Of a DNA stretch of 64,000 nucleotides, positions 4,005 through 47,172 are shown one piece after another. A model generated the notes under the pieces. It had not been told where the DNA came from and did not search any database. It saw nothing but the letters and a program-made list of their open reading frames with translations. The DNA is from Bdellovibrio bacteriovorus str. Tiberius (GTDB lineage: Bacteria > Bdellovibrionota > Bdellovibrionia > Bdellovibrionales > Bdellovibrionaceae): contig NC_019567.1 of the NCBI RefSeq assembly GCF_000317895.1, positions 1,488,001 through 1,552,000 on the forward strand, given 5' to 3'. The translations under genes were made by a program, and so were the position numbers. Every line of letters starts with the position of its first letter. Positions within the stretch are counted from its first letter, which is position 1.

Positions 4005-4313
4005 TTAATCGTTACACTGAGCAAAGCTGAAGTCGGAATCTTCCAAGCGGTCCATCCACCAGTCAACACAGCCACCAGAATCATATTCGCTGCATTTGAT
4101 CACAGAAGTGGAAAGCGCGCCATCGATGCAAGTGCGTGTGCGGGCAGTGCTGTTGCAAGTGTAGTTAGGGCCGATTTGTTTTGTCGGTTCAGCGCTGTAG
4201 TACATACGAACAGTTTTACCGTTCGGGATGATCAAACCATCAGCAGAAACGCAGTTGTGAGCTTGAGCTGTTGCGGAAACGCCCAGTGCCAAGGCAAAGA
4301 TAAGTGCTTTCAT
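4005..4313 (-). CDS. Small secreted cysteine-rich protein
   Basis: 102 residues. It begins with a clean Sec signal (MKALIFALALGVSATAQA, cleavage after AQA). The mature ~84 residues hold six cysteines (HNC, YTC, RTC, IKC, GGC, AQC), an even number that suggests three disulfides outside the cytoplasm. No known family recognised. The start has GGAG six bases upstream. Monocistronic, sharing the terminator with its convergent neighbour. Confidence 0.75.
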   Translation of the reverse strand: MKALIFALALGVSATAQAHNCVSADGLIIPNGKTVRMYYSAEPTKQIGPNYTCNSTARTRTCIDGALSTSVIKCSEYDSGGCVDWWMDRLEDSDFSFAQCND

Positions 4314-4405
4314 TCTATCTCCTATGTTTTCAGAACCGGGACTATAGCCAAAATGTTCCGCGAATGTTGTCAGGAGATTGTCAGGGAATGGTTGGGATTT
4401 GTGAA

Positions 4406-31949: not shown

Positions 31950-32095
31950 GGGCTCGTCGCATCACGCTCCTCGGGGCGTTGCCCTGCGCTTTCGCGCACC
32001 CTCGCGCTAGCATCCTGCTAGGGCGAGGAACCCCTGTGCCGGCGTCGCCGCGTGCTGCGAGCTTTGTAGGATTGTTTTTGCGCCGGCGCTCTAAG
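31950..32095. repeat. GC-rich palindromic intergenic element
   Basis: About 150 bp of very GC-rich non-coding sequence. It holds a strong imperfect hairpin: CCTCGCgCTAGC (32000-32011), loop ATCCT, GCTAGgGCGAGG (32017-32028). Outer parts GCTCGTCGCATCACG (from 31953) and CGTGCTGCGAGC nearly match as inverted repeats. It looks like a dispersed intergenic repeat unit, but only one copy lies in this window. Confidence 0.45.
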
Positions 32096-32133
32096 TTCTA
32101 AGCCCCTTGAAAACTAAGCTGTGAGTAAAAATA

Positions 32134-32166
32134 AAAACCCGAATCTTTCGATTCGGGTTTTTTATT
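32134..32166. terminator. Bidirectional intrinsic terminator, probably the original tRNA-Glu terminator
   Basis: CCCGAATC (32138-32145), loop TTTC, GATTCGGG (32150-32157), with A and T runs on either side. It lies just outside the left attachment repeat. Before integration it would have stood immediately downstream of the tRNA-Glu gene on the minus strand. Confidence 0.8.
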
Positions 32167-32173
32167 TTTAATT

Positions 32174-32187
32174 ACAAATTGGCGTTC
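32174..32187. repeat. Left attachment repeat of the integrated element
   Basis: ACAAATTGGCGTTC, a perfect 14-bp match to 47110-47123. It contains the tRNA-Glu 3' CCA and the last bases of the acceptor stem, as expected for a residue of the target left at the far end. Confidence 0.85.
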
Positions 32188-32682
32188 GCTGGTGCCGGGT
32201 CTTAGAACTGAATTGGTTAACAACGGCCAATGATTCTTACGGCGCTTTGTGTCACTATCTCGGGATTGTTTACATTAGTTGCAGCCCAATATTCTTGGGC
32301 TCTTTGAAACATACTAGCAACGGAGTCTGCTTGAGTGAAGTTCATATTCCAGTCCCCACGGTGGTAAGCAGCTTTTTTATCAAGAATCTCTACTTTATAT
32401 AGGATATCAAAGCCCCTTTGTCCTTCAATACGGAAGCGCTCGGCAATAGTTTTATCTTCGCAAAGAAAGATAGAATCCCACCTGCTGGGTTTGTTTTGAT
32501 AGTTGAGGACGCGTATTTGCTCAAATATGGCTTCTCGCGCGACTAGTCGCAGGTCGTTATGGGCTGAATATAGTTTAAGCATTCTTCCCCAGTTGCCCGG
32601 GAGGACAACGCTCCCTACATCGAGTGGATATGAACTGTTCCTGACCCCGATTTTATTTGGACACCCAACCCAGGGGGTCTTT

Positions 32683-33060
32683 ATGGAAACAACGTCTAAC
32701 AGACGGAAAGTATTTACACAGGAAAAGAAGCAATTAATCATCAAAGAGCACAATTCCCAGGGAATTTCTATCCCAGTGCTTGCCAGGAAATACGGGGTTC
32801 ATGCTATCACTCTTTATAGTTGGAAGAGGCAAATGAACCACAAAAAAGACGAATCCCCAATCAGTGCGGAATACATTCAAAAGTTGATCGAAGAAAACGA
32901 CAAACTCAAGGCTGAGAATCAGAATCTCAAAGCTAAAGTTGGCGATTTGACGATCAAGAATGACATCTTAAAAGATGGCCTGGAGATCGTTCAAAAAAAA
33001 GCGATATTAAAAGCACTTCAACCGCCAAAGAAGTCAAAGCGCTTAATCGGTATGAAGTAA
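32683..33060 (+). CDS. IS3-family transposase OrfA
   Basis: 125 residues. N-terminal helix-turn-helix (VFTQEKKQLIIKEHNSQGIS..VLARKYGVHAITLYSWKRQM), then a leucine-zipper coiled coil (LIEENDKLKAENQNLKAKVGDL). It binds the inverted repeats and acts as regulator or, fused to OrfB, as transposase. Near its end is C-A8-G at 32992-33001, a slippery site for the -1 shift into OrfB. Confidence 0.9.
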   Translation: METTSNRRKVFTQEKKQLIIKEHNSQGISIPVLARKYGVHAITLYSWKRQMNHKKDESPISAEYIQKLIEENDKLKAENQNLKAKVGDLTIKNDILKDGLEIVQKKAILKALQPPKKSKRLIGMK

Positions 33061-33887
33061 GTCAGATCGCAGAAGTTTTCGAAATCAGCCGAAGTTCAAT
33101 TTATTACGAACCAGTTTCTCAGGAGGAAATTGGCATGCCTCGCCATTACCAAAAATCAGACGATCAAATAATTTTAGAAGAAATCAAAGCCGTTATTGCA
33201 ATTAGAGCCACCTATGGCTACCGCCGGGTGACAACGATGGTGAATCGCCAAAGATCCCTTGATGGTCGCAATAAGATCAATCGCAAGCGTGTTCAAAGAA
33301 TCATGCGCATGAATGGTCTTTCATTGCCACAAACAATGCCACAGCCAAAAAGGCCACATACGGGAGTTGTTATGACTATGTTCCCGAATCTGCGTTGGTG
33401 TTCAGATGGCATGGAAATCCGCTGTTTTAACGGCGACAAAGTTTTCGTGGCGTTTGCTTTGGATTGTTGTGATCGCGAAGCATTTGCTTACGTCGCTAGG
33501 ACTGAGCCGCTATCAGCTACCGACATAGAGGAATTGATGGTTAAAGCTGTTGAAGCGAGATTTGGTGAGTCATTGAGATGTCCTCGCGAAATTCAGTGGT
33601 TGTCAGATCGAGGGTCAATTTACCGTGCGAAGTCCGTGAAGGATCTTGGCAAAGAGTTAAATCTGAATTGCTGTTACACCAGAGCCTACAGCCCAGAATC
33701 CAACGGCATGGCTGAAGCATTCGTTAAAACAATCAAAAGGGATTACGTTTATCAGGCTGACTGTGACAGCGCAGAGACGGTTCTCAAGCTTTTGCCGCAG
33801 TGGTTTGCAGATTATAACAATATTGCTCCGCACTCAGCACTTGGCATGAAGAGCCCGGTCGAGTACAAAGGGTCCGTGAACTTTTAA
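33000..33887 (+). CDS. IS3-family transposase OrfB (DDE integrase), read by -1 frameshift
   Basis: The frame is open from the A8 slippery run (about 33000), giving SRSSIYYEP before the first ATG at 33135. The rve integrase core shows the acidic residues: Asp in RWCSDGMEIRC, Asp in QWLSDRGSIYRA, Glu in PESNGMAEAFVKTIKRDYV, matching the IS2 subgroup. The HTH_21-like region ATYGYRRVTTMVN lies before it. All key residues are intact, so the element could still move. The product is most likely an OrfAB fusion from 32683. Confidence 0.88.
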   Translation, partial: SDIKSTSTAKEVKALNRYEVSQIAEVFEISRSSIYYEPVSQEEIGMPRHYQKSDDQIILEEIKAVIAIRATYGYRRVTTMVNRQRSLDGRNKINRKRVQRIMRMNGLSLPQTMPQPKRPHTGVVMTMFPNLRWCSDGMEIRCFNGDKVFVAFALDCCDREAFAYVARTEPLSATDIEELMVKAVEARFGESLRCPREIQWLSDRGSIYRAKSVKDLGKELNLNCCYTRAYSPESNGMAEAFVKTIKRDYVYQADCDSAETVLKLLPQWFADYNNIAPHSALGMKSPVEYKGSVNF

Positions 33888-34017
33888 ACCGTGTCCAAAA
33901 AATCGGGGTTCACTCCAGAACAAAAGAGATAGTACGATTGATCAGCTAACATTTATCGATTTCCTTACTTTATTTAATTGGGTTAAGTACTCATTGATTT
34001 GATAAGATCTCTTAGAT

Positions 34018-34941
34018 CTACATTTCCCATTCTTTCAAAGATCTATCGATGTAGGACTTGAGACGTTTATATCTTTGACCTAGCTTTGGATGATCTTTGA
34101 ACTTGTCTTCACAGTCTAAGACAAATTTTTTAAGGGGTTCGAGGATCTCAAGCGTATAATTGAAATCATCTGGCAAGGTGGATTGAAGTTCTCGGGCGGA
34201 TGCGCCAAAAAAATGAACCATTGGTCGCCCATCTTCGTCCACAATTATCCAGCCATTACATCGTTCCGCCATCATTTGACAGTATTTCCCTATGGCGGCA
34301 TCTCTGAACTCAATGTTTACAATGCTTCTTAAAAAGTTTAGTAGGCCTATTCCAATCAGAACCCTAGGATATTCAGCTTCCTTGCTTTCTAAAGTATAGG
34401 CTCGATTTAGTGCTGGTCCATAAAGTTCATTGCTCCCTGGATACAGAGAAATACCACCTTCAAGATCGATACCTCCACGGAATGGTACTTTTTTACTTAA
34501 ATACAACGGAGCTATCGTACCAACTGAAGCTAAAATTCCGTGAATGCTATTCAGTACTTTGGCGTAATCCAGGTCATTTTTAAGGTAGACTGGTGTCCAT
34601 ACGATTGTAGAGTCAGAGAAACTCTGAAAGTTTATCTTCGAATGACTTAGCATTTCCTTAAAATGAGTTTCAAATTTTTTCGGAATTTGAAACGGTGGCT
34701 CATGCTCTAAATAGCTGTCGAAGAAGTCTAAAAACTGCTTTCTAAAAGCCCAAACAGTGCCTACTGTATGCTTGAGGGTCTTTTGCAGTTTATCTCGACT
34801 TATCTCCGGATTCTCAGCCTCTAGGATCCCTTCAATTTCGCAGATTCGATCCTTCTGTCCAAGTAAATCTAGGAAAGCTACAACGTGATGGCCGTAATAT
34901 AAGTCTGGCTTGCTCTCTCGATCTGTCTTCGGGATGACCAT
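34018..34941 (-). CDS. Class III nucleotide-cyclase-like protein (candidate defence cyclase)
   Basis: 307 residues, soluble. Three motifs fit a divergent class III cyclase fold. HHVVAFLDLLGQKD (Asp25) corresponds to the first metal Asp; QSFSDSTIVW (Asp110) to the second; FRGGIDLEGG..YGPALNRAYTLESKEAEYPRV (~154-193) to the substrate-binding region seen in prokaryotic cyclase homologues such as Pycsar PycC. No effector domain is attached. It is 6 bp after the DUF4209 gene, so they form a two-gene operon. Enzyme activity and product (cUMP, cCMP or other) are hypotheses. An inactive or different cyclase-fold protein cannot be excluded. Confidence 0.55.
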   Translation of the reverse strand: MVIPKTDRESKPDLYYGHHVVAFLDLLGQKDRICEIEGILEAENPEISRDKLQKTLKHTVGTVWAFRKQFLDFFDSYLEHEPPFQIPKKFETHFKEMLSHSKINFQSFSDSTIVWTPVYLKNDLDYAKVLNSIHGILASVGTIAPLYLSKKVPFRGGIDLEGGISLYPGSNELYGPALNRAYTLESKEAEYPRVLIGIGLLNFLRSIVNIEFRDAAIGKYCQMMAERCNGWIIVDEDGRPMVHFFGASARELQSTLPDDFNYTLEILEPLKKFVLDCEDKFKDHPKLGQRYKRLKSYIDRSLKEWEM

Positions 34942-34947
34942 AATTTA

Positions 34948-36789
34948 TCAGACCTTTTTCTTTGCTACTATCAGAAGACACATGACTAGCAGGACCATTA
35001 GGTTGAAAGAATATTCGGGTTTGTATGATAGGCCATGGGCTACTTTATGACGCCAGTTCTGTCCGGATTTTTCAATTAGAACAAAGCGCAGATAAAATAG
35101 TTGGTCTTCAGAGAATAGATTTTTGATGGTTTTGGAGTACAACAAAGCATTGATGTCTTGTTCATTTACTACCTTGCGTCTACTTTTATCGTCTTTCATG
35201 AAGAAGGTAGCCTCTTTGTTCTGCTCACAGAGGTCTCTGAGAAGGCTTTCGAACTTCATAGCAAGAGAGTCGCAACAGAGGACAAAGTCGGGGCGATAGT
35301 TAGCATTTGCTAGAGCTTCGTTAGTTTGAGTGATGAAATATTTCAGTGCCGGGAGCACCAGGTCCAGAAAGGATTCTTCTGTTTCAACTGCTGGTGACCA
35401 GATGTTTCTTTTCTGGGAAAGCCAAGTCTCATTCGTCAGATATGATTCAAAAAGCTCAATAGTAAATAGTCCGCTTTTGATGCCGTGTAAGAAAATAAAT
35501 CTGAGCAATAGAATTTTATTACATTGAAGATGGAATTCGTATGTATGTAACTCCCATCTTCTTTTTATTTCTTCAGGGGTTGTGAAGTGTTCAATTGTGT
35601 TTCCTCGGTGATCCAAGACAGATTGAGGCATATCACTTTGGAGAGGCATTTTCTTAAGTCTAGCCTCATTTTCGGTGCGAATGGCGTTGACGTTTGGAAT
35701 GAGCTCGGGAGTGTCCCTTAAGAAATTTAGGACTTCTGCTCCGTGTTCTTTGAGTAGCTCTTCGGCGTATCGTGAAGCTGAATTTGCGGACTCTGTTAAA
35801 TCTATTGTTTGACGATATGACCCTAGACGGATTGATTTTTTTGCTTCGTCGTACTTTCTTTCTAAATCTGCGACTTTGTCCGTGTTTTTCATAGATTTAT
35901 AAAGCTCCAAGGCTTCAGAAATATATTCCGCCGATGCTGGATTACTCTTCCCAAAAGAATCTGCAATTTGTTCGTAGACATCTGCCAGTTGATGCTTCCA
36001 ATCAATGGATTTTAGTTTGGACTTGTTGCTCACTTTTCCGAGAGCAAGTAGCCAGTCCATTTTACCAAATAGATCCGTTTTATCTTTCTGATGAGTATAA
36101 ACATTTTCGATGTGTGGGAATAAGATCGAACCAAAGGTTTTCCATTTTTCTATTGAAAGATCAAGTATGAATAGTCTTACTGAACTAGACGCCGGATTGT
36201 TGTAATCGTATGAATTAAATATTCTGATTAGTAATTCCTGAGTCTCTTGTTCTTTGTAGGACACTCTAGTCGATAGGACCCAGAGGCTTTTTAGTGAGTC
36301 AATAATTCTGTGTCCTCGGCTCTTCTTTGGTTCTTCCAATTCGAAATTCAGTAGTTGGGAAGTTGAGTCTAGATACGAGTCTATTGCAGATTTCACAAAA
36401 TCAATATGCTTTAATTTCGATTCCCAGAGAAGATGTGCGTAGCGTGCTTTGAGGGTTGGATTTTTGGAAGTCCAATGGCGTTCCTTCAGATAGTCCAAAT
36501 CTGAATCTGAGTAGATGGATAGGTCTGGGAATGGACTAGCCAGCACAAACTTTGGATTTACTTTTCCATCGACAAAAACAAAACTCTGAAATTCTAGTTC
36601 AAGTTGACACTTATGAAGAGACTCTCTGTCGCCAGCATTTTTGTATTTATCCCGTAGTTTTTGAAACGCATTAGCTAGGCTATCTTCGTATTTTACTTTA
36701 TGCGCAAAACTCTCTAGTATATTGAAGCCCTCGTTAAGATCCTGAAGGTCAGGTATCTTGGGGTTTCTTTTCTCATCTTCTTTTTTCAT
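34948..36789 (-). CDS. DUF4209 protein with HEPN-like RNxxxH motif
   Basis: 613 residues, mostly helical, with no signal peptide. The C-terminus carries NWRHKVAHGL (~580), matching the RNxxxHG motif that defines DUF4209 and the R-x4-H motif of HEPN ribonucleases. The N-terminal ~480 residues are helical repeats without recognised catalytic motifs. The ATG at 36789 is chosen because GGAG lies five bases before it; the longer frame to 36999 overlaps the divergent promoter. It is first in an operon with the cyclase-like gene. HEPN proteins often act as RNA-cleaving effectors in defence, so this may be the effector; that is inference. Confidence 0.6.
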   Translation of the reverse strand: MKKEDEKRNPKIPDLQDLNEGFNILESFAHKVKYEDSLANAFQKLRDKYKNAGDRESLHKCQLELEFQSFVFVDGKVNPKFVLASPFPDLSIYSDSDLDYLKERHWTSKNPTLKARYAHLLWESKLKHIDFVKSAIDSYLDSTSQLLNFELEEPKKSRGHRIIDSLKSLWVLSTRVSYKEQETQELLIRIFNSYDYNNPASSSVRLFILDLSIEKWKTFGSILFPHIENVYTHQKDKTDLFGKMDWLLALGKVSNKSKLKSIDWKHQLADVYEQIADSFGKSNPASAEYISEALELYKSMKNTDKVADLERKYDEAKKSIRLGSYRQTIDLTESANSASRYAEELLKEHGAEVLNFLRDTPELIPNVNAIRTENEARLKKMPLQSDMPQSVLDHRGNTIEHFTTPEEIKRRWELHTYEFHLQCNKILLLRFIFLHGIKSGLFTIELFESYLTNETWLSQKRNIWSPAVETEESFLDLVLPALKYFITQTNEALANANYRPDFVLCCDSLAMKFESLLRDLCEQNKEATFFMKDDKSRRKVVNEQDINALLYSKTIKNLFSEDQLFYLRFVLIEKSGQNWRHKVAHGLSYKPEYSFNLMVLLVMCLLIVAKKKV

Positions 36790-36920
36790 CTTTTCTCCAT
36801 AAATGAAGATCACTATACAATGACTGCTGGTATTAGTTGACAATTTTGTGTTTAGCGTCATGATATATTTGTCGGATTGATTACACAAGTGGTGTGAGTA
36901 CCATTCTCGGAAGGGTAATG

Positions 36921-37565
36921 ATGGCTGCATTGGTGCTGGAGTTGCAAAAAGAAGCATTGGGGAAAGATGTTGGATTAACCGATCTGTTGCGGAAAGCATA
37001 TTTTGTTGCTCGCAAGCTTAAGGTGAAGGAACTTGAGGAGTGGGTAAGTCACGAACTCAATGGTTATCCTTCGGGTACTGATTTGCCTCCATATAGAACG
37101 ATTTCTGGAACAATGAAGGTCTGGAATCCGTATCACGGATGGCAGACCGTAATGTTTGAGAGTTCTAAAACTATGGATGCGCTATCTACTCGTCAGTGTT
37201 CTCAGGCGGCATCTGAAATTGAGCATATACTTCAAAACTCTAAAGATGGTGGGTCAGCCACAATGGACTACTCTGCGGAGGTAGCTGGTCAAATAATGAG
37301 TTCAATCGGAATAGACTTGCGGCCATCTCTTCACATTCCACTATCAGCTCTCCATAGAATCCTGGACTCAATTAAGAACTTAATCTTGAACTGGTCATTG
37401 AAGCTTGAAGAGGACGGGATTCTCGGTGATGACGTTTCCTTCTCAGATGAGGAAATTAGAAGAGCGGCGCAGGCAAATTATAATATCACTAATATTTATG
37501 GGAATGTCGTTGATTCGCAACTTCAGCAAGGAACTCAGAGTTCTAGGCAGAAATCGAGGAAGTAG
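36921..37565 (+). CDS. AbiTii-domain protein (abortive-infection type)
   Basis: 214 residues. The N-terminal region LLRKAYFVARKLKVKELEEWVSHELNGYPSG..LPPYRTISG matches the AbiTii domain (helical, with the W..ELNGY and PxYR motifs). The C-terminus ends NITNIYGNVVDSQLQQGTQSS, a Gln/Asn-rich motif found in several prokaryotic proteins with coiled or assembly domains. Start ATG at 36921 follows GGAAGG by five bases (36918 is an alternative). The next gene begins 2 bp after the stop and carries a similar motif, so the two proteins probably work together. A role in phage defence is inferred from the family name and location. Confidence 0.7.
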   Translation: MAALVLELQKEALGKDVGLTDLLRKAYFVARKLKVKELEEWVSHELNGYPSGTDLPPYRTISGTMKVWNPYHGWQTVMFESSKTMDALSTRQCSQAASEIEHILQNSKDGGSATMDYSAEVAGQIMSSIGIDLRPSLHIPLSALHRILDSIKNLILNWSLKLEEDGILGDDVSFSDEEIRRAAQANYNITNIYGNVVDSQLQQGTQSSRQKSRK

Positions 37566-37567
37566 TT

Positions 37568-38209
37568 ATGGTCGATATTAACAAGAAGCAATTGCAGAGA
37601 TTGAGGTATCTGAATCAGCTTTTTGACGAGGTTGGGGGTGACACCGGTCCAAATGTTGGGAGTTTGGTAGTTGGGCGATCTATAGGCCTTACTGATCATG
37701 AAGTTGATGTGATTATTCGCTACTTGTCAGATGAGGGTTTAATTGAAATTACGACGATGGGCGATGATGATGGGCCTACCGTCGAGCTAACTCATCAAGG
37801 ATTGGTTGAGATTGAGAGAGCTAGAACCAACCCCCAGTTAAGGACTGAACATTTTCCGCCAATGGTAAATATTATCAATATTAAAAACATGAACGGTTCG
37901 CAAATTCAACAGGGATCTGTTGGCAGTAGTCAATCGCAAGTCAACAAAAATGCAGATCTTGAGATTTCTATTCGCAACTTGATCAGTAAGATTGAATCCT
38001 CTAATGCGGCTTCAGAAGATCAAAAGGAACTAGCCCGGACTTATGCTGATGTCATTATCTCTCAGGCTAAAATTTCTGCTGAATCTAGAAATAGTGATTT
38101 GGTAAAGAAGACGTGGGAGAAGTTGAACAAACTTAGTGTGGCCCTTTCTCTGATCGATTTTACCGCCAAAGCAGCACCTGTTATTGCAAGTACCTTTGGA
38201 TTCCTATGA
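37568..38209 (+). CDS. Winged-helix protein paired with AbiTii protein
   Basis: 213 residues. Residues ~1-80 look like a winged helix: QLQRLRYLNQLFDEVGG..VGRSIGLTDHEVDVIIRYLSDEGLIEITT. Residues ~98-116 hold INIKNMNGSQIQQGSVGSSQ, close to the motif at the end of the AbiTii partner. The C-terminal ~80 residues are helical. Coupled to the AbiTii gene (2-bp gap). It could be a sensor or a regulator of its partner; no family is asserted. Confidence 0.65.
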   Translation: MVDINKKQLQRLRYLNQLFDEVGGDTGPNVGSLVVGRSIGLTDHEVDVIIRYLSDEGLIEITTMGDDDGPTVELTHQGLVEIERARTNPQLRTEHFPPMVNIINIKNMNGSQIQQGSVGSSQSQVNKNADLEISIRNLISKIESSNAASEDQKELARTYADVIISQAKISAESRNSDLVKKTWEKLNKLSVALSLIDFTAKAAPVIASTFGFL

Positions 38210-38339
38210 GTTTGAGCTGATGATTTCAGTAGAAGCCTGATTTTAGGTTGATGATAGTAGTGTAGGAGTTTCTAAAGTTCCCGGTCTAGTATGTTACTTT
38301 AGATCTTTAGTTACAACAACGGCAATCCCCCTACCCTAA

Positions 38340-39005
38340 GAAGAGAGCTGCGCACTCTAGAAATAGTGATTGCTAGCGCGATACTTCAAACTTAACCCTC
38401 TGGCCAGCGCTACTCATGGAACAACGGTCAGTAATTCCATCAGTAGAACTCGCCAGTTAATGGTGGTTGCCGTTACCCATCCACCAAAGTATTCAGTCGT
38501 TACCTGAAGGCGAGGAGTGATCCTCTATATTCAAGATCCCTTATTGGCCGGTTTGAGAGTAAATCCCCCTTCAGTCTTGATCGTCCTGATGCTACTGAAG
38601 CCCAACTGTGTCACCTATGAATGCGTCCGCATCCATCCCCAATGACTACCTGACACCTAAAAGAAATAGCGTTGAAGATTCCCAGTAGATTTAAGACTTC
38701 TTCAAGAGCCTTTGCCAGTCCTTATTAGGTAACTGAACCTTGCCTAATTTTACGTCTGATAGGCTACGCGTTGACGGAAAGCTTGCGCCTTCTCAAAAAG
38801 CAAACACCGCTGGTCGAAATAAAAAAAGGGAGAAAGCGTCGAGTCGTGAACAATTATTCAGCCTGGTTTGGGGTTCCGGAGGAAAGGAGGCTTTTCACAA
38901 GGAAACGACGCTGTAATAAGCTCGTGGCACAATAAGTACAGGTCGCCGCGGCCAACCGGCGGGGGCAGTCACTGAGCCGCTCCTAAGACGGATCTGGAGT
39001 TTACT
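38340..39005 (+). ncRNA. Large structured non-coding RNA (candidate)
   Basis: About 830 bp between genes (38210-39043) hold no ORF, yet many perfect or near-perfect helices are visible. CTACT-C-ATGGAA (38410-38421) with TTCCAT-C-AGTAG (38435-38446). CTCGCC (38449-38454) with GGCGAG (38509-38514), enclosing TGGTGG (38461-38466) with CCACCA (38481-38486). GAGGA/TCCTC (38512-38525) with a GTGA (GNRA) loop. CTTCAGT (38569-38575) with ACTGAAG (38594-38600). GTGTCA (38608-38613) with TGACAC (38651-38656). TTGAAG (38672-38677) with CTTCAA (38700-38705). AGCGTCG (38835-38841) with CGACGCT (38906-38912), enclosing GTGAA/TTCAC and AGCCT/AGGCT. CGCCG (38944-38948) with CGGCG (38957-38961). Size, structure and location on a mobile element recall GOLLD/ROOL-type RNAs, but membership is not shown. 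Confidence 0.65.
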
Positions 39006-39043
39006 CTAATAGCAGCTGAAGAGTTTTCCTTCTTGGAGGTGTT

Positions 39044-39241
39044 ATGTCCATTCCGTCCACAAAGAAGATAGATATTGAAGCAAGCAAGGCTATGAATAGC
39101 TACAGAGCGGGTAGGTCGCTCAGGGCAAAGGTAACGAATGCGTCAGCGTTGATGCTGTTAGGAGTCTTGCCATTGGTTACTGATGACACCAAGGCGGCTA
39201 GGCTTCTAAAGGTGATTTCCCAGTTAACGAAGGATAAATAG
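39044..39241 (+). CDS. Small hypothetical protein downstream of the structured RNA
   Basis: 65 residues, basic (MSIPSTKKIDIEASKAMNS, then SLRAKVTNASALMLLGVLPLVTDD), with a weakly hydrophobic middle. No family recognised. GGAGG five bases before the ATG supports translation. It begins about 40 bp after the structured RNA, so it may be cotranscribed with it. Function unknown. Confidence 0.6.
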   Translation: MSIPSTKKIDIEASKAMNSYRAGRSLRAKVTNASALMLLGVLPLVTDDTKAARLLKVISQLTKDK

Positions 39242-39312
39242 CAAGCCAGCGTTTTCCAATGCGGGGTAGCGGTGCTATATGGCCCTCTTCTTTAAGAATT
39301 TATATACCTACT

Positions 39313-39936
39313 TTATTCTTCTGACTGAGTAATGCCGTTTTGGACAGCCTGTTCTCTCTGTCTTAGGGCTTCTTCTTGAGATTCTGCTTTGTACTCCATT
39401 AGCCGTGCAGTAATGGGCTCAGACTTGAAGTCCTTTGGGTAGGCATCAACTAGTTTTGTTACGGCCTCATCCCAGGAGGCGACAGTGCCCCAGTCTGTTT
39501 TTACAGTATTCTCTACAGCGGTAATAACTTCCCCTGTGGAAGTGTCCATCAAGTTAATGGATTGCTGGCACTCGTGTCCCATTCCAGTCCAATAAGAAAT
39601 ATCTCGGCATTGAACATTGGCCACTACGACGGCACCTGCTCCATACAGTTTGCCATAAAGTGCAAACTTTTCTCGATCTTCAAAGCGATCAATAGACTTC
39701 CGGTGAAGCATATCTTGTTCTTCTTTGATTGCCTTCAATCCTTTTGATCTATCAAGAATAATGAAAGATCCATTTGCCACTAGAGCTGTTTGGAGTTTCG
39801 CATACTCTTTTGCTGAAATAGAAGCACTATCAATCATGATCCTCATGGACTTATCTGAAAATTTAGTTCGCTTCTCTTTTGAGGAACACCCAGTAGCCAA
39901 AATGAACAAAGAAAGTATCAGAATAGCATTTTTCAT
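39313..39936 (-). CDS. Lipoprotein with CsgG-like domain
   Basis: 207 residues. Lipobox LATGC (Cys17). The body has LQTALVANGSFIILDRSKGLKAIKEEQDML and YGKLYGAGAVVVANVQ, the typical second and third strands of CsgG-like and FlgT-M-like domains; CsgG is the curli secretion pore, but this short version lacks the pore-forming segments I would expect. RBS GGAGG before ATG at 39936. It follows a signal-peptide protein gene by 28 bp. Likely an envelope accessory of the element; function unknown. Confidence 0.6.
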   Translation of the reverse strand: MKNAILILSLFILATGCSSKEKRTKFSDKSMRIMIDSASISAKEYAKLQTALVANGSFIILDRSKGLKAIKEEQDMLHRKSIDRFEDREKFALYGKLYGAGAVVVANVQCRDISYWTGMGHECQQSINLMDTSTGEVITAVENTVKTDWGTVASWDEAVTKLVDAYPKDFKSEPITARLMEYKAESQEEALRQREQAVQNGITQSEE

Positions 39937-39964
39937 AGAATCCTCCTGGCCTTGATTGAAGTGC

Positions 39965-40390
39965 CTATTTACCTTTTGATTTCTTCATATCCATCAGTCC
40001 CTTGCTCTTAAGGCCTTCTTTTAGAGGATAGAGAATATTGGGAAACAGAATTTGTGGAATATCCTTTCCATCAATAACAACTCTCTGAATATCCAAGATG
40101 TCTTCTTTCTTTACCGTCTTTTTCTTAAACAGAAACTTGGAGACCGTCACGTTGTCCGTCATTTGATCCACGGATTCATTGGTTAAGATCCAACTATCGC
40201 TGCCCACGGCAGTCCATGAAGTTTTACCATTTGAAAAGAGCTTAACAAAGGACTTCAGAGATGTTTCAAAATTAATAAGTCCTCCCTGCGAATCTGAGAT
40301 GACTCTTAGGGACTGGTTTGGGCTCTCAGCATTTGCTGTAGATGCGGTTAAAAACAACGCTAATAAGATGGTTTTTAGTGTATTTGACAT
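39965..40390 (-). CDS. Exported hypothetical protein
   Basis: 141 residues. Signal peptide TLKTILLALFLTASTANA, then a small soluble domain (LRVISDSQGGLINFETSLKSFVKLF.., TVSKFLFKKKTVKKED). No family recognised. It sits upstream of the CsgG-like lipoprotein gene in the same direction and just downstream of the HTH gene, suggesting one operon of envelope-exposed cargo under the local repressor. Confidence 0.6.
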   Translation of the reverse strand: MSNTLKTILLALFLTASTANAESPNQSLRVISDSQGGLINFETSLKSFVKLFSNGKTSWTAVGSDSWILTNESVDQMTDNVTVSKFLFKKKTVKKEDILDIQRVVIDGKDIPQILFPNILYPLKEGLKSKGLMDMKKSKGK

Positions 40391-40399
40391 AATAAACTC

Positions 40400-40720
40400 T
40401 CACTTCCCTGATTTTGTCTTAACTTTCTTAATAGTGATTTCATATAGGCCGGTGTGAACCTCTGCCTTGTCGATGAGGCTTATAAATTCCTCTCGTGGAT
40501 CCTGCTCTCCGAACAACAAGTAATGTGTGCTAATGCCAAAATAGTTCGATAGTGACTTGATTGTCTCAGCTTCCCGAGGAATTCGCCCGCCGGCGCCCAG
40601 CCACTCTTGTACAGTTCGATATGGAATGTTGAGATCTCTGGAAAGATCTTTTGCTGTTAGGCTCTTTTGGCTTAAAAGCGTCTTTAATGTATTTCCGAAA
40701 ATATTCTTTATTTGTTTCAC
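40400..40720 (-). CDS. Cro/CI-type helix-turn-helix regulator
   Basis: 106 residues. The HTH is clear: LKTLLSQKSLTAKDLSRDLNIPYRTVQEWLGAGGRIPREAETIKSLSNYFGISTHYLLFG. The C-terminal ~40 residues are a short extension. Start GTG at 40720 is chosen because AAGGA sits seven bases upstream; the frame opens to a TTG at 40738 without a good ribosome site. Such regulators often keep phage or element genes silent; which promoter it binds is not visible. Confidence 0.8.
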   Translation of the reverse strand: MKQIKNIFGNTLKTLLSQKSLTAKDLSRDLNIPYRTVQEWLGAGGRIPREAETIKSLSNYFGISTHYLLFGEQDPREEFISLIDKAEVHTGLYEITIKKVKTKSGK

Positions 40721-40734
40721 GCTATTATCCTTCG

Positions 40735-40827
40735 TCAAATAACAGAATTTGCTTTAGATAGTTGCTTAACAGTGTGTTCAATGCGCGTAACAGCGTGCTT
40801 CGGATGTACATATTCATGTGTATTCAT
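40735..40827 (-). CDS. Possible 30-residue peptide
   Basis: ATG at 40827 with AAAGGA upstream; MNTHEYVHPKHAVTRIEH and so on, ending 14 bases before the HTH start and overlapping the end of the upstream gene. It may be a coupling leader. No homology recognised; weak. Confidence 0.25.
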   Translation of the reverse strand: MNTHEYVHPKHAVTRIEHTVKQLSKANSVI

Positions 40828-41308
40828 CCTTTCTTTCAAATTTAAGATCTTTAACTTTCCCAATTGATAGCTGAATAGATGATTTGCTGGATGGAGATTC
40901 TTTAAGTAGAGGGTTCTGTTTAAGAGTGGTGATGAGATCATAGTCTAAATCATCCAGAAGTAGGTAAACGTGCGACTCTTCCGAGATCTCTAGTAAGTCA
41001 GCGCTTCTTATTAGTGCTTCATGGGCTGATTCAGCAATCTTTCTAAGTTCACTTGAATCTATTTGAGCGCAATATCTGCGAGCTTCGCGTAGCAATATTG
41101 AAAGATAGATGCATTCTTGTCTGGCTCTTGAGGGAACTAGTGTTGAAGCGGCTTCATGAATAATAGACTCAGTGGTCATGCCTTCTCTTATCTGTCCGTA
41201 TCCAACACTAATGATGGGGGAAGCTTTGAGTGTAATATGTTCTTTCCTAATCTGGCTGAGAATCTTGTTGGCATTTTTAAAGACAATTTCAAGATCTCGT
41301 ATCTTCAA
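40814..41308 (-). CDS. Hypothetical protein, element cargo
   Basis: 164 residues, helical, cytoplasmic. RARQECIYLSILLREARRYCAQIDSSELRKIAESAHEALIRSADLLE is the most ordered part. No family recognised. Start TTG at 41308 is supported by GAGGAG five bases before; an overlapping ATG gives only a short frame. First gene of the minus-strand group that continues through the HTH, exported and CsgG-like genes. Confidence 0.55.
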   Translation of the reverse strand: MKIRDLEIVFKNANKILSQIRKEHITLKASPIISVGYGQIREGMTTESIIHEAASTLVPSRARQECIYLSILLREARRYCAQIDSSELRKIAESAHEALIRSADLLEISEESHVYLLLDDLDYDLITTLKQNPLLKESPSSKSSIQLSIGKVKDLKFERKDEYT

Positions 41309-41392
41309 TCATTCTCCTCTGTAACGAATTTTAATCGGCCGATTTCGTTCTCTCGAAAATGACAAAAATCCAGAAGCCGTAACCCTTCGTAA

Positions 41393-42064
41393 TCACTTGT
41401 TGTCATTACCCTCTGAGGTGTGTTTTTCGGAAAACGATTTAGCTGCGCCCTTCAAGACACGTTTTATGACTGTATTGGAACAGCCTAACTGCTCTTCGAT
41501 TTTCCGATAGGACATACCCTGTTCTCTTAATCTTAATATTTCTTGATCTAACTTAAGCGGTGGTCGTCCTAAAGTTTTTCCTTGGGACTTGGCATAGGCA
41601 AGACCAGCGATAGTCCGTTCTCTAATGAGGGCTCGTTCAAACTCAGCAAATGAGGCAAGTAACTGGAATTGCAATTTACCGATCGCCGTTGAAAAATCTA
41701 TATTGTCTTCAATACTGATGAACTTGACGTTATGGTCATCGAAAAGAATCATCATATCCAATAGGTGCTTGAGAGAGCGGAACATCCTATCGAGTCGAAC
41801 GACGCATACGACACTTACGACGTTACGACGTACAAGTTTTTGGAGTTCAGCAAGGCCAGGGCGAATATCCGTTCCGCCGCTGTAGCCTTGATCCACGATC
41901 TCCACTGTGTTATTGAGTTCTACATGGTGGGCGTAGTCCCTTAGAGCTTCAAGCTGCACTTCTGGCTGCTGTAGCTCTGTCGAACATCTCGCATAAAGAA
42001 TAGCTTGCTTGTTAGTTTTTTTATTCTTTTCCACCTTTTTTAAAATTTTGCCTGCGTGAATCAA
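41393..42064 (-). CDS. Serine recombinase (resolvase/invertase family)
   Basis: 223 residues. The resolvase catalytic domain starts AILYARCSTELQQPEVQ (nucleophile Ser in RCST), followed by VVCVVRLDRMFRS and FAEFERALIRERTIAGLAYAKSQGKTLGRPP, then a Hin-type HTH (LREQGMSYRKIEEQLGCSNTVIKRVL). This is the small resolvase/invertase type, separate from the large recombinase at the right end. It may resolve multimers or invert a segment. Start is uncertain: the frame opens at TTG 42064 with no good ribosome site, and a GTG at 42034 is possible. Confidence 0.88.
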   Translation of the reverse strand: MIHAGKILKKVEKNKKTNKQAILYARCSTELQQPEVQLEALRDYAHHVELNNTVEIVDQGYSGGTDIRPGLAELQKLVRRNVVSVVCVVRLDRMFRSLKHLLDMMILFDDHNVKFISIEDNIDFSTAIGKLQFQLLASFAEFERALIRERTIAGLAYAKSQGKTLGRPPLKLDQEILRLREQGMSYRKIEEQLGCSNTVIKRVLKGAAKSFSEKHTSEGNDNK

Positions 42065-42084
42065 AATAAAAAAGGGAATAAGTT

Positions 42085-42963
42085 ATGAATGAGAACATTA
42101 ATTTGCCGTTGGCTCTGCCATTTGGTCTTAAGAATAAGTCCCATGCCGAGGAAACTATACTAGATAAGTTTAATACCCTCTACAATAACAGAGCATTCTC
42201 CGAATATATCAAGTTTGGAAAGACCCTTGAAAAAGAGGAACAGGATGCAAAGAAAGAAGGAAAATGTCTGGATCTAATTCCTGACTTTCATAGAGGGCTT
42301 CTTTGTCTTTTTCAGAAGATGCTTGAAAATATAAATCTACAAATAATCTGTGATTGTCTTGAGAAGGATCTACAATCTAGACAGCTAATTTATGACATTG
42401 TTAATGCACTTCAAGTTTTCAGAAGCCCTTACTTTGGAGAAATGTTTGGCGAATATACAAATCGTAGGCTTGTTAATTATGTCGCCAATAAAAATGGAGA
42501 CCCAAGACTATTCAACAACGCCGGTGATGTTAAGCCTCCAAAGGAGCTCAATGGTATAAAAAATATTTTTTGGTACTTATTAAGAAATCTTCAAGCGCCT
42601 GATAGTACGTTCAGAAGAAGCATTAAGAATTCTGCATACATTAATGAGAAAATGAAAAACGAGATCATTAATTCATTTAAAGTGTCGTCTCTAAATACAA
42701 AGTCTTCTAAACTTACCTTGGCAGATCAACTAAATGATTTTTTTAGTAAGGACAAAAAGTCACAGGAGATGCATTCAAGAATATTGGCAAATGTTGAACA
42801 GGAAAAATTTAGATTAAAACATGAAGTCATTGCTGACATCTTGAACTGGCGATTCAACTTAGATATGGAGTATGATCATGACCTCCAATATCCTAAGTTT
42901 AAGCCGTTAATATATTTTTCGAAGGATAACATTGAGGTGTACCTTAACCCTCGAAAAAAGTAG
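42085..42963 (+). CDS. Hypothetical protein, element cargo
   Basis: 292 residues, AT-rich codon use, helical and hydrophilic. Recognisable stretches such as DLIPDFHRGLLCLFQKMLENINLQIICDCLEKDLQSRQLIYDIVNALQVF do not match a family I know. No signal or membrane segment. RBS AGGGA before the ATG. It is divergent from the small serine recombinase and upstream of the replication-like genes, possibly a regulator or replication accessory. Confidence 0.6.
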   Translation: MNENINLPLALPFGLKNKSHAEETILDKFNTLYNNRAFSEYIKFGKTLEKEEQDAKKEGKCLDLIPDFHRGLLCLFQKMLENINLQIICDCLEKDLQSRQLIYDIVNALQVFRSPYFGEMFGEYTNRRLVNYVANKNGDPRLFNNAGDVKPPKELNGIKNIFWYLLRNLQAPDSTFRRSIKNSAYINEKMKNEIINSFKVSSLNTKSSKLTLADQLNDFFSKDKKSQEMHSRILANVEQEKFRLKHEVIADILNWRFNLDMEYDHDLQYPKFKPLIYFSKDNIEVYLNPRKK

Positions 42964-43075
42964 TCTCAAATCGAATATATGCGACTTTCGGCCCCCTTAG
43001 AGTGCTTTTTTAAGGTATGACATAAGGATCTCACTTAAGCGGAATCAACCGCACAAACCCTTGAAAAGGGAGAAG

Positions 43076-43504
43076 GTGAGGTCCATCTTGGGCATTCTAA
43101 AACCAAACTACAATAATTCAATAGAGCAAGTGCCTGCGGGCATTTATACAGCCGCCATTGTTTCTGCAACTCCGATTACAACTAAGTCTGGCACTACGGC
43201 TGTCAAAGTTGAGAGTAAAATCACAGAAGGTCCTTATAAAGATAAGGTCATTCCAGTAACTCTTCCTTTGGAAGGAAAAGCTGCCGGATTCTTTAAGAAC
43301 TTTGTTTTAGCTGTCAAGCCAGACTACCAAGGTCGTGAAATTGCAACAGAAGATCTTATTGGGAGGCCTCTAAAAATCAAGGTAATGACTTCGACTTATC
43401 CAAATGGTGCAAGGTCATATCTAAAGATAGCAGCCTTCCCTGCTTCTTTCGATGAGGGTCAAAATACTACTCAGTCGCAAGAGGGGATTCGCAATGAAAT
43501 GTAA
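43076..43504 (+). CDS. DUF669-like protein (possible single-strand DNA binding)
   Basis: 142 residues from GTG 43076 (RBS GGGAG; TTG at 43061 is an alternative). The start LKPNYNNSIEQVPAGIYTAAIVSATPITTKSGTTAVKVESKITEG and FKNFVLAVKPDYQGREIATEDLIGRPLKIKV resemble phage DUF669-type proteins with an OB-like fold. These usually sit beside phage replication genes, as here. The family match is moderate. The stop overlaps the next gene start. Confidence 0.55.
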   Translation: MRSILGILKPNYNNSIEQVPAGIYTAAIVSATPITTKSGTTAVKVESKITEGPYKDKVIPVTLPLEGKAAGFFKNFVLAVKPDYQGREIATEDLIGRPLKIKVMTSTYPNGARSYLKIAAFPASFDEGQNTTQSQEGIRNEM

Positions 43505-43793
43505 TGCGAAAATCGTTGGACTTAAATTCCTTAGTTCAAGAGCCATTATCTTAGTACTCCATCTTCGCAGTGAGGATGGGATTGAGACAACAAAAACAGC
43601 CTATTGCCCAATCGATAGCAAAGGCTTCTTCCTGATAACACGTCCCATTTTGGAGAAATACCTCTGCGATGCAGATGGCTGGATCAATGGGAGAAGTTTT
43701 GAGACTGAAATTCAGAACATGGAATTTGAACTGTATGCCAACAATGACAATTACATCAACATCAAGGGATTTGAACGTGGCATTAGTAAATAG
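43494..43793 (+). CDS. Small hypothetical protein of the replication-like module
   Basis: 99 residues, AT-rich, no signal peptide. KIVGLKFLSSRAIILVLHLRSEDGIETTKTAYCPIDSKGFFLITRPILEKYLC suggests a compact alpha/beta fold. No family recognised. ATG at 43494 with GAGGGG upstream; overlaps the preceding stop by 11 bases and the next start (43777) by 17. Tight coupling suggests a shared job with the ATPase. Confidence 0.6.
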   Translation: MKCNAKIVGLKFLSSRAIILVLHLRSEDGIETTKTAYCPIDSKGFFLITRPILEKYLCDADGWINGRSFETEIQNMEFELYANNDNYINIKGFERGISK

Positions 43794-45297
43794 TATTAAC
43801 GTATCTGGTTTTGCGTTTCACGGACTTTGGAGAAACTCGAGTGGCGAAGGAATTGTATCCATCGCCCGTGGTAGTGCGTTGGATGTTTACCCCACTCGCT
43901 CAATAGAGTTGCGTCGGTATTTAAGGCAAAAAGCATATCTAATTGATGGTGAGAATGAAAGAAGTCGAATCCTGAACGACAACGCCTTGGATTCGATCAT
44001 TGGCACTATTGATGCCCTTTGTGATCTGTCTGACAATGAAGTTAATTTATCTGTTAGAGTCGCGACTGGAGCTGGCGGCGAAATTCTTGTTGATGGCATT
44101 AGCAATATTTATTCTATTACTGCTGATGGCTGGAATATAACTAGTATTGACAGGCCTATTTTTAAGAGATCTTCCGGAATGAAGCCTTTGCCGGAGCCTG
44201 TTCCTGGTGGAGATATTCACAAAGTGTTTGAATATCTGAATATTAAGGACAAGTCGGATAGGCTGCTATTCTTGACGTATTTGGTTTCGTCATTTGTTGC
44301 GGATATTCCTCATCCATTTGGGAACTTCTTTGGATCTCAAGGCGCTGCGAAGACTACAGCGATGAAAGTCTTTACAGCTATTGTTGATCCAAATACGGTG
44401 ACTGATATCCACTCAGCCTCGGAGAATGACTTTCAGATTGCGGCCAGTCAAAGATGGGTTGTTTGCTTGGATAATGTTCCGGATTTTACAAGAAAGTTTT
44501 CCGACTACATCTGTAAGGTAGTAACTGGGGCGTCTTTTATTAAAAGACGTCTCTACACAGACGACTCAATGATGGCCGAGCGATTCTTACGTGTTGTTGT
44601 TGCTAACGGAATCACAGTCCCTGCTCAACGCGCTGATCTTTTAGACAGATGCCTCTTATTCCAGTTAGAAAGGATTGAAAGACATCTGCGCAAGGATGAA
44701 AAAACTCTTTTTGCAGATTTTGAAACTGACCGAGCACAGATTCTTGGTGGGTGTTTTGATGCGCTATCAAAGGCCATGGCGCTCCTGCCCACAATTGAAG
44801 GATCTTTTAACACTCGAATGGCTGACTATGGAAAATGGGGGTGTGCGATTGCTCTTGCTCTTGGATATTGCAGAAGTGATTTCGAGGATGCCCTAGAGAA
44901 AAATAATCAGAGGCTGAATGAAGAGTCCTTGGATGCATCACCTATTGCAACAGTGCTGGACTATATTTTTCTCAAAGCAGGAAGTTCTGGTTTTAGAGGT
45001 TCTGCAAGTGATTTGCTTAGTGGAATAAGAAGTTGTGCAGAGTCTGCGGGAATAGAGCCAAGGTATTTGCCTTCGAGTCCTCATGCAATGGGAAAGAAGC
45101 TGGTAGAAATAAAAGCAAACCTTCAGAGTTCACAGTATTTTATTGAATTTGTCAGAGGGAAGGAGCGCATTTGGACAATTTGTCCTCCTCCGAGCTACGC
45201 AAAAGACCGTAGTAAATATTTAAACAATTCTTTGTCGTCTATATCGTCCGGAGTCACAAGAGCTTTTTCTTACAATGATAAGATGACCGATTTGTAG
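43777..45297 (+). CDS. P-loop ATPase, probable SF3-type/replicative helicase or primase-helicase
   Basis: 506 residues. FGSQGAAKTTAMKVF (~185-199) is a Walker A; WVVCLDNVPDF ~50 residues later fits Walker B. ERFLRVVVANGITVPAQRADLLDRCLLFQLERI resembles the sensor and arginine-finger regions of phage/plasmid helicases. The start GTG at 43777 follows AAGGGA by seven bases; the frame upstream to 43669 overlaps the previous gene and lacks a good site. Context is element replication. It could instead be an ATPase of a DNA-packaging or other phage-like function. Confidence 0.7.
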   Translation: MALVNSINVSGFAFHGLWRNSSGEGIVSIARGSALDVYPTRSIELRRYLRQKAYLIDGENERSRILNDNALDSIIGTIDALCDLSDNEVNLSVRVATGAGGEILVDGISNIYSITADGWNITSIDRPIFKRSSGMKPLPEPVPGGDIHKVFEYLNIKDKSDRLLFLTYLVSSFVADIPHPFGNFFGSQGAAKTTAMKVFTAIVDPNTVTDIHSASENDFQIAASQRWVVCLDNVPDFTRKFSDYICKVVTGASFIKRRLYTDDSMMAERFLRVVVANGITVPAQRADLLDRCLLFQLERIERHLRKDEKTLFADFETDRAQILGGCFDALSKAMALLPTIEGSFNTRMADYGKWGCAIALALGYCRSDFEDALEKNNQRLNEESLDASPIATVLDYIFLKAGSSGFRGSASDLLSGIRSCAESAGIEPRYLPSSPHAMGKKLVEIKANLQSSQYFIEFVRGKERIWTICPPPSYAKDRSKYLNNSLSSISSGVTRAFSYNDKMTDL

Positions 45298-45304
45298 GTA
45301 GGGC

Positions 45305-45451
45305 ATGACAAAATTAGTAGAGTCATTAAAGAAAGGTCTGAGTTGTTCGGACTCCTGTTCTGATGATGAGTTTATCGAAGTTGTCACGCTCTTCAAACTT
45401 CTGGTAGAGATCAGTAAAAGAAAAAGACCGCATGAGTCTCAAGATGGCTAA
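45305..45451 (+). CDS. Very small protein between the ATPase and recombinase genes
   Basis: 48 residues: MTKLVESLKKGLSCSDSCS, then DDEFIEVVTLFKLLVEISKRKR to a TAA at 45449-45451. The ATG follows AGGTAGGG, and the gap to the ATPase is only 7 bp, fitting operon structure. Two Cys near the middle and a predicted helix. No family recognised; could be a regulator or directionality factor (speculative). Confidence 0.5.
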   Translation: MTKLVESLKKGLSCSDSCSDDEFIEVVTLFKLLVEISKRKRPHESQDG

Positions 45452-45501
45452 GATCTTCTCTTTCCGAAGCCATCGAGTTAAAATTATGTTTGGGGTATTA
45501 A

Positions 45502-47172
45502 ATGTTACCAAAAAAAATAAGAAATAGAAAAGCCATCGCACTACTGCGTGTATCTAGCAAAAGGCAAGAAGGCAATAACTCTCATCAAGTTCAAGAAGAG
45601 AAAGTTGTAGAATATTGTGGGGAGTTTGACCTTGAGTTGGTCGACACAAGAAGGATTGTTGAATCCGCGAAAAGATCGGATCTTCGAAAGAAATATGCTG
45701 ATGCTATTCAGACGGCACTAAGAAATGATATTTACAATGTTCTTTTCTATATGAACGATCGCGAGGCTCGTAATCTTACAGACAATGAGAACAATGAAAG
45801 GCTGGTTAAGGAAGGAAAAATCTGTATTCACTATGTGAATGACCGGAAGGTTCTTCATTCAAAAAGTCCTGCTTCTGATTTTTTAATGAGAGACTTCTAT
45901 GCTGTTCAAAATAAGAACTACAGCCGTGTCTTGAGTGAAAAAGTGAATGATGCCATGAGATTCAAAGCAGAAACAGGCTGCTTTCCTGGGAATCGTCCCC
46001 CATTGGGATACATTCATCAAAAGATAAAAAGCGCTTGCGGAAAAGAGATGAAACGAGGGACTGTTGTTGTTCCAGATACGAATGAAGGAAATCTACGTTG
46101 GGTGCGCCGAGAGTTTGAACTCCGCTCTCAAGGCATGACGATTGAGCAAATTAGAGATCGAATCTTAAGTGAAAACTTAGTTCCTCCCTCGAAGCGCTAT
46201 AGCTATTCTGTTCATGGAGTGGAGGAGCGGCTTAAAAACAAATTTTATTGGGGCTCATTCGACTGGCAAGGGATTGAATACAAGGGCAATCATGATCTTA
46301 TCATCGACAGGCAGACACTTCAGTTGGTGAAGGCAAGCTTTGGTCTTAAGGGTACATACAATCGCACCAAGCATCTGCAAGCATTGTTTTCAGGTGGCTG
46401 GCTTCGTTGCTCCCATCCGGAGTGTGGTCTTCAGATTGTCTATGACCCAAAGGAAAAGAAAAACAAAAAGAAGGGCACAGTTCGTCGTTTTGAATACTAT
46501 CGCTGTGCTAACTCCAGAAAGCTCCATAAAAGCTTAAAGTACGTCACTGAGGGGCATTTGTGGGAGCAGTTTGAGTCTGCCCTTGGTGGGCTTTCTATGA
46601 CTCCGGAAATGGCAGAGAGAGTATCTTTGGCATTGAATGAGTATGACCTAGCCGCTAGGAAGAATGTAGAGGTTGAAGCCCGTAGGGTGCAGGTATCAAT
46701 TGCAGAGCTGCATGAAAAGAAAGACAAGCTAATGGATCTTTACCTGGCTGGAGGTTTGGACTCCCAGGAATACAAAAGGCAGTCTCAAAGATTCCAAGAT
46801 GAAATAACAAAGAACGAGAAGCTGTTAGAAGAAATAAAGCTGTCTCAAGACGATTCTTGGAAGATAACAGCCCAACGTGTATTCGAACTCGCTATCAATC
46901 TGAAATCACTTTGGAAACAAGGAAGTGAGGAAGAGCGACTGCAAATACTGAAAAAGCTCTATTCGAACCCAAAATTGAACGAGAAAGAGCTTTTGTTAGA
47001 ACCACGGCGTCCGTTCCTAACTCTCAGTAATATAAAGGAAAAGATGATTGAAGAAGAGGTTCAGAAAAAACAAAACCCAGAGCTTTTAGACTCTGGGTTA
47101 GTCGATAAAACAAATTGGCGTTCCCAAGGGGATTTGAACCCCTGTATCCTCCGTGAAAGGGAGGTGTCCTAG
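45502..47172 (+). CDS. Large serine recombinase (integrase of the element)
   Basis: 556 residues. Resolvase catalytic domain (KAIALLRVSSKRQEGNNSHQVQEE, catalytic Ser in RVSS), Recombinase domain (GNRPPLGYIHQKI; MTIEQIRDRILSE), zinc ribbon (GWLRCSHPECGLQIVYD..YYRCANSRKLH) and a coiled-coil C-terminus. These enzymes join attP and attB. Its last 16 residues (from SQGDLNP on) are encoded by the antisense strand of the tRNA-Glu gene. Excision would give a different C-terminal tail (see findings). Target choice in a tRNA is uncommon for this family. Start ATG follows GGGGT weakly. Confidence 0.92.
   Translation: MLPKKIRNRKAIALLRVSSKRQEGNNSHQVQEEKVVEYCGEFDLELVDTRRIVESAKRSDLRKKYADAIQTALRNDIYNVLFYMNDREARNLTDNENNERLVKEGKICIHYVNDRKVLHSKSPASDFLMRDFYAVQNKNYSRVLSEKVNDAMRFKAETGCFPGNRPPLGYIHQKIKSACGKEMKRGTVVVPDTNEGNLRWVRREFELRSQGMTIEQIRDRILSENLVPPSKRYSYSVHGVEERLKNKFYWGSFDWQGIEYKGNHDLIIDRQTLQLVKASFGLKGTYNRTKHLQALFSGGWLRCSHPECGLQIVYDPKEKKNKKKGTVRRFEYYRCANSRKLHKSLKYVTEGHLWEQFESALGGLSMTPEMAERVSLALNEYDLAARKNVEVEARRVQVSIAELHEKKDKLMDLYLAGGLDSQEYKRQSQRFQDEITKNEKLLEEIKLSQDDSWKITAQRVFELAINLKSLWKQGSEEERLQILKKLYSNPKLNEKELLLEPRRPFLTLSNIKEKMIEEEVQKKQNPELLDSGLVDKTNWRSQGDLNPCILREREVS
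47062..47100 (-). terminator. Intrinsic terminator inside the recombinase gene, serving tRNA-Glu
   Basis: Minus strand: AACCCAGAG, loop TCTAAAAG, CTCTGGGTT, then TTGTTTTTTC. Pairs are 47091-47099 with 47074-47082. It lies within the 3' end of the plus-strand recombinase gene, just downstream of the minus-strand tRNA-Glu. The element seems to supply a replacement tRNA terminator. Confidence 0.8.
47110..47123. repeat. Right attachment repeat of the integrated element
   Basis: ACAAATTGGCGTTC, identical to 32174-32187. It spans the encoded CCA and last acceptor-stem bases of tRNA-Glu. Confidence 0.85.

Follow-up and report, generated by a model that had tools for sequence, protein, structure and literature searches.

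Large ornate RNAs are few in bacteria, and their functions are mostly open. One of them, ROOL, forms a homo-oligomeric cage with intermolecular kissing loops, and HEARO is a large structured bacterial RNA tied to mobile genes. To our knowledge, a conserved large structured RNA has not been described as a core component of VapE-type integrative elements or satellites. The RNAs that come closest to the one considered here are ROOL and GOLLD. A gene for a small HTH regulator lies near ROOL (PMC5643018), and in Ligilactobacillus salivarius the deletion of a plasmid-borne lncRNA was accompanied by a lowered plasmid copy number (PMC5643018); we identified this lncRNA as ROOL by its match to the Rfam model. 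GOLLD (RF02032), also large and ornate, occurs in prophages and phages, often close to tRNAs (PMC12286853).

We analysed a stretch of 64,000 nt from the genome of Bdellovibrio bacteriovorus Tiberius (hereafter the window), which contains an island of ~14.9 kb (32188-47123) integrated at tRNA-Glu. The corresponding site is empty in HD100: by synteny, HD100 and four other genomes join exactly across the island. With an integrase, attachment repeats, an empty site in a relative and defence cargo, the island is a defence-carrying integrative element, and it was recognised as neither phage nor plasmid. Our main reading, with a probability of about 0.8 that refers to identity and structure, is that positions 38776-38327 of the minus strand encode a highly structured non-coding RNA of ~450 nt, from a non-Rfam family that belongs to the core of Bdellovibrionota integrative elements. 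The features of the island and the RNA are, in window coordinates:

32175-32187 and 47112-47124: island attachment repeats CAAATTGGCGTTC, flanking the island at tRNA-Glu
36894-37565, plus strand: AbiTii gene (Pfam AbiTii, 7e-46; PADLOC AbiTii)
37568-38209, plus strand: AbiTii partner gene, which with AbiTii forms the cargo adjoining the RNA; other copies have other genes here
38327-38776, minus strand: predicted structured RNA of 450 nt, its ends placed by conservation, some of which extends to 38317
near 38776, minus strand: RNA 5' end, CGUCAACG
near 38327, minus strand: RNA 3' end, UAGGGUAGGGGG
38777-39043, no strand assigned: intergenic space from the RNA 5' end to the small-protein gene, outside the conserved RNA and the presumed site of both promoters
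39044-39241, plus strand: gene for a 65-aa protein with a strong ribosome site, transcribed away from the RNA
41393-42064, minus strand: serine resolvase of the element core (Pfam), in the same place and on the same strand in the homologous loci G085 and G072 described below
43669-45297, plus strand: VapE-like primase/helicase of the element core, start codon uncertain
45502-47172, plus strand: serine recombinase (integrase) at the tRNA-Glu end (Pfam and PHROG integrase)

Several further observations concern the island and its flanks. A 683-aa protein with DUF7380 and DUF4209 (34948-36999) matched the PADLOC candidate PDC-S39 (4e-29) and represents a second defence gene. In G106, a related AbiTii pair adjoins the same tRNA-Glu, tRNA-Lys and purA genes, which points to an insertion hotspot at tRNA-Glu. 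The left junction of the island holds an AT-rich, terminator-like palindrome (32093-32210) that is kept in HD100; on either strand, no other local fold of the window is as strong (z ~ -7.5). The VapE-like protein is 36-41% identical to its counterparts in G085 and G072, the latter with a VapE-like Pfam match, and relatives of this helicase occur on small plasmids.

An earlier sequence-only reading had singled out the interval 38340-39005 (~650 nt) as a non-coding, plus-strand RNA with more helices than expected by chance. Its non-coding character was confirmed: region 38210-39043 has 14-21 stops per frame in all frames and no codon signal, and its six frames, read through stops, gave no Pfam, PHROG or NCBIfam match. 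The excess of helices was not borne out. Perfect stems of at least 5 bp numbered 55, against 49.9 +/- 7.4 in shuffled sequences, and other 666-nt windows of this stretch averaged 58. Nor was the whole region more stable than shuffled controls (MFE z ~0 on both strands, 200 shuffles); the sole outlier on its own energy was a 58-nt hairpin at 38399-38456 (z -6.6 on the minus strand). Such tests are uninformative here, because a true ROOL RNA (plasmid pMP118) reached a z of only -1.3. Unremarkable energies and helix counts are thus no argument against an RNA, and homologues had to decide.

Plain DNA similarity searches in phages, plasmids and relatives gave nothing useful, and searches of viral contigs with several patterns and two protein queries yielded chance matches only. 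A covariance model with the window sequence as its sole input (R1, 38380-38494) matched G085, a genome from the same order and a different family, end to end with 39.8 bits. A blastn comparison of the window and G085 loci gave 1e-12 over 38372-38570 (200 nt) and 5e-7 over a second block, and with MAFFT the two loci align over the whole 450-480 nt. Both served as founders of a second, minus-strand model (R2) of 150 columns and 39 pairs, all standard in the two sequences. When run against 369 genomes of the phylum, R2 recovered G072 with 118 bits (E 1e-27) and G327, from another family of the phylum, with 54 bits (E 1e-10), these E-values being rough because of a short calibration. A match in G360 (26.6 bits) scored the same as the reverse-strand self-match, which is noise level, and was left out. 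The three homologues, all in other Bdellovibrionota genera, scored 162, 118 and 54 bits with the refined model, bringing the total to four copies in four genera. Conservation also extends beyond the modelled 150 nt, to AAATYAGGCA and CTAAYAA close to the 5' end and, at the 3' end, to UAGGnnGGGGG. All copies share their two end blocks, with total lengths of 450 nt in the window and 480, 477 and 469 nt in the homologues. This conservation outside the R2 core provides independent support for homology, and from the four copies the family length is estimated at about 450-480 nt.

The predicted fold comprises the following parts, all on the minus strand:

38384-38509: core junction, with closing helix 38509-38499/38396-38384 and 38496-38495/38399-38398, enclosing P3 and P2
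38400-38456: P2, a long hairpin interrupted regularly by 1x1 internal loops
38461-38486: P3, hairpin TGGTGG/CCACCA, whose register differs by one base
38512-38525: small hairpin GAGGA-UCAC-UCCUC
38742-38776: candidate 5' H-type pseudoknot (38776-38773/38756-38753 and 38764-38760/38746-38742, with the A-rich loop UAAAAU)

In the four-sequence core, 95.5% of cells were paired and 19 of the 39 pairs showed double changes, a number equalled in none of 500 shuffles and reduced to 2-3 pairs with a slid partner; the alignment was fitted to R2 and so leans to the model. The two-sequence MAFFT alignment made before model fitting contained eight double changes (1/500 shuffles). Covariation was seen in 10 of the 19 pairs of P2. 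P3 occupies the same place in G085 with a different sequence (GGACAGG/CCTGTCC), and the small hairpin is paired in all four sequences, with three covarying pairs. For the 5' pseudoknot, 88.9% of cells were paired, against 19-47% when slid, with one double change per helix; its pairing was matched by 26 of 500 shuffles, so that the evidence for its existence is suggestive. Taken over four copies, homology and structure are well supported.

These results uphold the proposal of a large ornate RNA on a mobile element, possibly of a new class, including the compensatory changes looked for in homologues. They also redraw it. The conserved RNA spans about 38327-38776, leaving out the 3' third of the interval first proposed. 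All of the helices named at the outset are present in the sequence, and three are conserved: CTACT.ATGGAA/TTCCAT.AGTAG (the P2 hairpin), TGGTGG/CCACCA and GAGGA/TCCTC. AGCGTCG/CGACGCT falls outside the conserved RNA, and in place of CTCGCC/GGCGAG the conserved fold uses the different closing helix listed above. The sequence TCTAGAAATAGTGATT occurs exactly twice in the genome, once towards the 3' end of the partner gene of AbiTii (38084-38099) and once in the RNA 3' domain (38356-38371), where Tiberius has more bases than G085 and G072; the pair may mark a local duplication or recombination.

The plus orientation first suggested was reversed by the comparison. Alignment energies were -81.9 kcal/mol for the minus strand versus -49.6 for the plus strand with two sequences, and -99 versus -66 in the second comparison. 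The minus core fold contained 32 G-U and no A-C cells, compared with two G-U and three A-C in the plus fold; as R2 was built from the minus fold, the G-U counts of its two founders lean towards minus. Column-shuffle z-scores were -15.5 (core) and -7.9 (full length) for minus, and -8.9 and -5.2 for plus, a partial score that is expected from the complement of a true fold. On the G-U and A-C cells and these z-scores, we assign the fold to the minus strand. A GNRA loop had been cited for the plus strand; it is GNRA on plus in Tiberius, whereas G085 and G072 have GCAA on minus.

The order of genes was constant in three of the four copies: cargo, RNA, 65/67-aa gene, resolvase, VapE-like helicase and integrase. 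The window has AbiTii and its partner, the RNA, the 65-aa gene, lipoprotein genes, HTH, resolvase, helicase and serine integrase. An 8.3-kb contig of G085 carries a 1086-aa P-loop-like gene, the RNA, a 65-aa gene, resolvase, VapE-like helicase and tyrosine integrase, and G072 has DUF4297-HerA defence genes, the RNA, a 67-aa gene, HTH, resolvase, helicase and integrase. The cargo is unrelated between them (AbiTii and PDC-S39 in the window, DUF4297-HerA in G072 and a large P-loop-like protein in G085), with defence genes in two, and the integrase type also varies (serine in the window, tyrosine in G085), while the RNA and the small protein stay. G327 kept the RNA and an HTH gene (locus L087) very like that of the window (40400-40738), with no recognisable small-protein gene at its locus. 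This likeness suggests, from sequence, that the HTH regulator may also belong to the element core.

The sequence-only reading had pointed to the small protein with a strong ribosome site beside the RNA, and this protein proved to be a conserved companion in three of the four copies. Its homologues (65 aa in G085 and 67 aa in G072) occupy the same place and align over their length. The window protein is predicted to be a three-helix bundle (pLDDT 78), and a fold search with it gave no significant structural match. The AbiTii pair that this reading placed directly before the RNA is exchangeable cargo, which differs in other copies. A role for the RNA as part of the AbiTii system was considered and rejected, as AbiTii pairs occur in G081 and G106 without such an RNA. 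Its fixed place between swappable cargo and the small-protein and recombination genes suggests that the RNA is a core module in a family of integrative elements. Being common to islands with different anti-virus genes, it probably belongs to the machinery of the islands themselves.

The main rival to a minus-strand RNA is that the conserved fold acts as single-stranded DNA, for example as an origin from which the excised element replicates or is transferred. The plasmid-like VapE helicase and the location in the element core would suit such an origin, and G-T wobbles form in single-stranded DNA too, where compensatory changes would look alike. We consider this unlikely, given that no iterons or relaxase were seen nearby and that the helicase gene lies several kb away in the window; the length of 450 nt, the large branched fold with its many G-U pairs and the possible pseudoknot are, in our judgement, also more RNA-like. 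Transcription of the same RNA from the plus strand, perhaps by processing of a 3'-extended cargo mRNA, is less probable again. The higher plus-strand alignment energy, the weaker core z-score and the wobbles on minus speak against it, and because the cargo is unrelated, a promoter in the cargo ends would have had to arise anew for each cargo. It draws some support from G085 and G072, in which the block begins only 15-18 nt past the cargo stop and ends, on the plus strand, in a terminator-like stem (ACGCC/GGCGT) followed by T5-6; the bases of this stem also form one helix of the candidate minus-strand pseudoknot. No terminator was seen at the minus-strand 3' end.

It appears improbable that the RNA belongs to ROOL, GOLLD or another known class of large RNA as a strongly diverged member. 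Size and mobile setting are similar, partner proteins are unknown in both, and ROOL lies near a small HTH gene (PMC5643018). None of the four copies, however, matched any family of Rfam 15, including GOLLD, ROOL, HEARO and OLE, with permissive thresholds included for two of the copies, while the ROOL model (RF03087) scored 130 bits on the known ROOL plasmid. Without a match, the RNA cannot be filed under these four families, and the early likeness to GOLLD and ROOL does not extend to membership. Titles and abstracts in the open literature on Bdellovibrio and non-coding RNA covered transcriptome work, and none described this RNA. The family is absent from Rfam and previously unlisted. It is hardly credible, finally, that the helices arose by chance in coding DNA, ordinary or decayed: the unremarkable single-sequence statistics and a 54-nt likeness to queE would agree with this, and the homologues with their covariation contradict it. 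The queE likeness, a match to the G368 motif RLTGCPLRCTYCDTTYSY (E 3e-6) at 38923-38979 on the minus strand, lies outside the RNA. It was judged to be chance because a frameshift-tolerant profile scored 21.8 there and 22.7 elsewhere in the window (6/800 shuffles), and other relatives of G368 lacked the match.

Read as a minus-strand RNA, the molecule would be transcribed from the intergenic space that it shares with the small-protein gene, towards the 3' end of the cargo. No consensus promoter was found in this space (38777-39043). The spacer between RNA and small protein is conserved in G085 and G072 (loci L079, ~4110-4336, and L086, ~7850-8072) with the dyad TTAGCAAGCGCTAA, and a block AAAGCTCTTAGANGGCGTTTATGGAGG stands just 5' of the small-protein gene in both, with a weaker likeness in the window; the dyad and the block are possibly an operator and a structured leader. 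As the RNA 3' end faces the cargo 3' end and the RNA 5' end faces the small-protein gene, cargo could presumably be swapped without touching the promoter side of the RNA.

The RNA and small protein are retained as the cargo changes, which makes the pair a likely contributor to the life and spread of the defence islands. We tentatively propose that the RNA would act in trans to maintain the element, through copy number or persistence of the excised form or through expression of the element in the cell. This proposal draws on the drop in plasmid copy number that accompanied loss of ROOL (PMC5643018) and on the observation that the RNA accompanies genes for replication and recombination rather than any particular cargo. 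The RNA would act alone as a folded particle or jointly with the small helical protein, a joint particle of RNA and 65-aa protein being possible. More doubtful is the wider idea of a new mobile-element RNA machine (~450 nt, with the 65-aa protein or RNA-only) that would control replication or persistence of defence-carrying elements and have evolved independently of ROOL and GOLLD. A further family, unrelated in sequence and found in a culturable predator, offers an independent case for why mobile elements carry such RNAs.

Among described systems, the RNA may work like ROOL, judging by analogy. Both are large multi-helix RNAs in a mobile setting, close to a small regulator gene and with function open; ROOL measures about 550-570 nt and is carried by plasmids, phages and prophages. 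Helix layout and host phylum differ, and the RNA here is accompanied by a three-helix protein of 65 aa, next to a resolvase-VapE-integrase core. Many GOLLD members exceed 800 nt, and the RNA described here lies 8 kb from the attachment-site tRNA. HEARO and OLE are likewise large structured bacterial RNAs, but neither an IscB/TnpB-type gene nor the OLE partner was among the neighbour genes of the RNA that we examined. The carrier itself resembles VapE-type integrative elements and satellites, with which it shares an integrase at a tRNA or other site, a VapE-like helicase, an HTH regulator and swappable defence genes.
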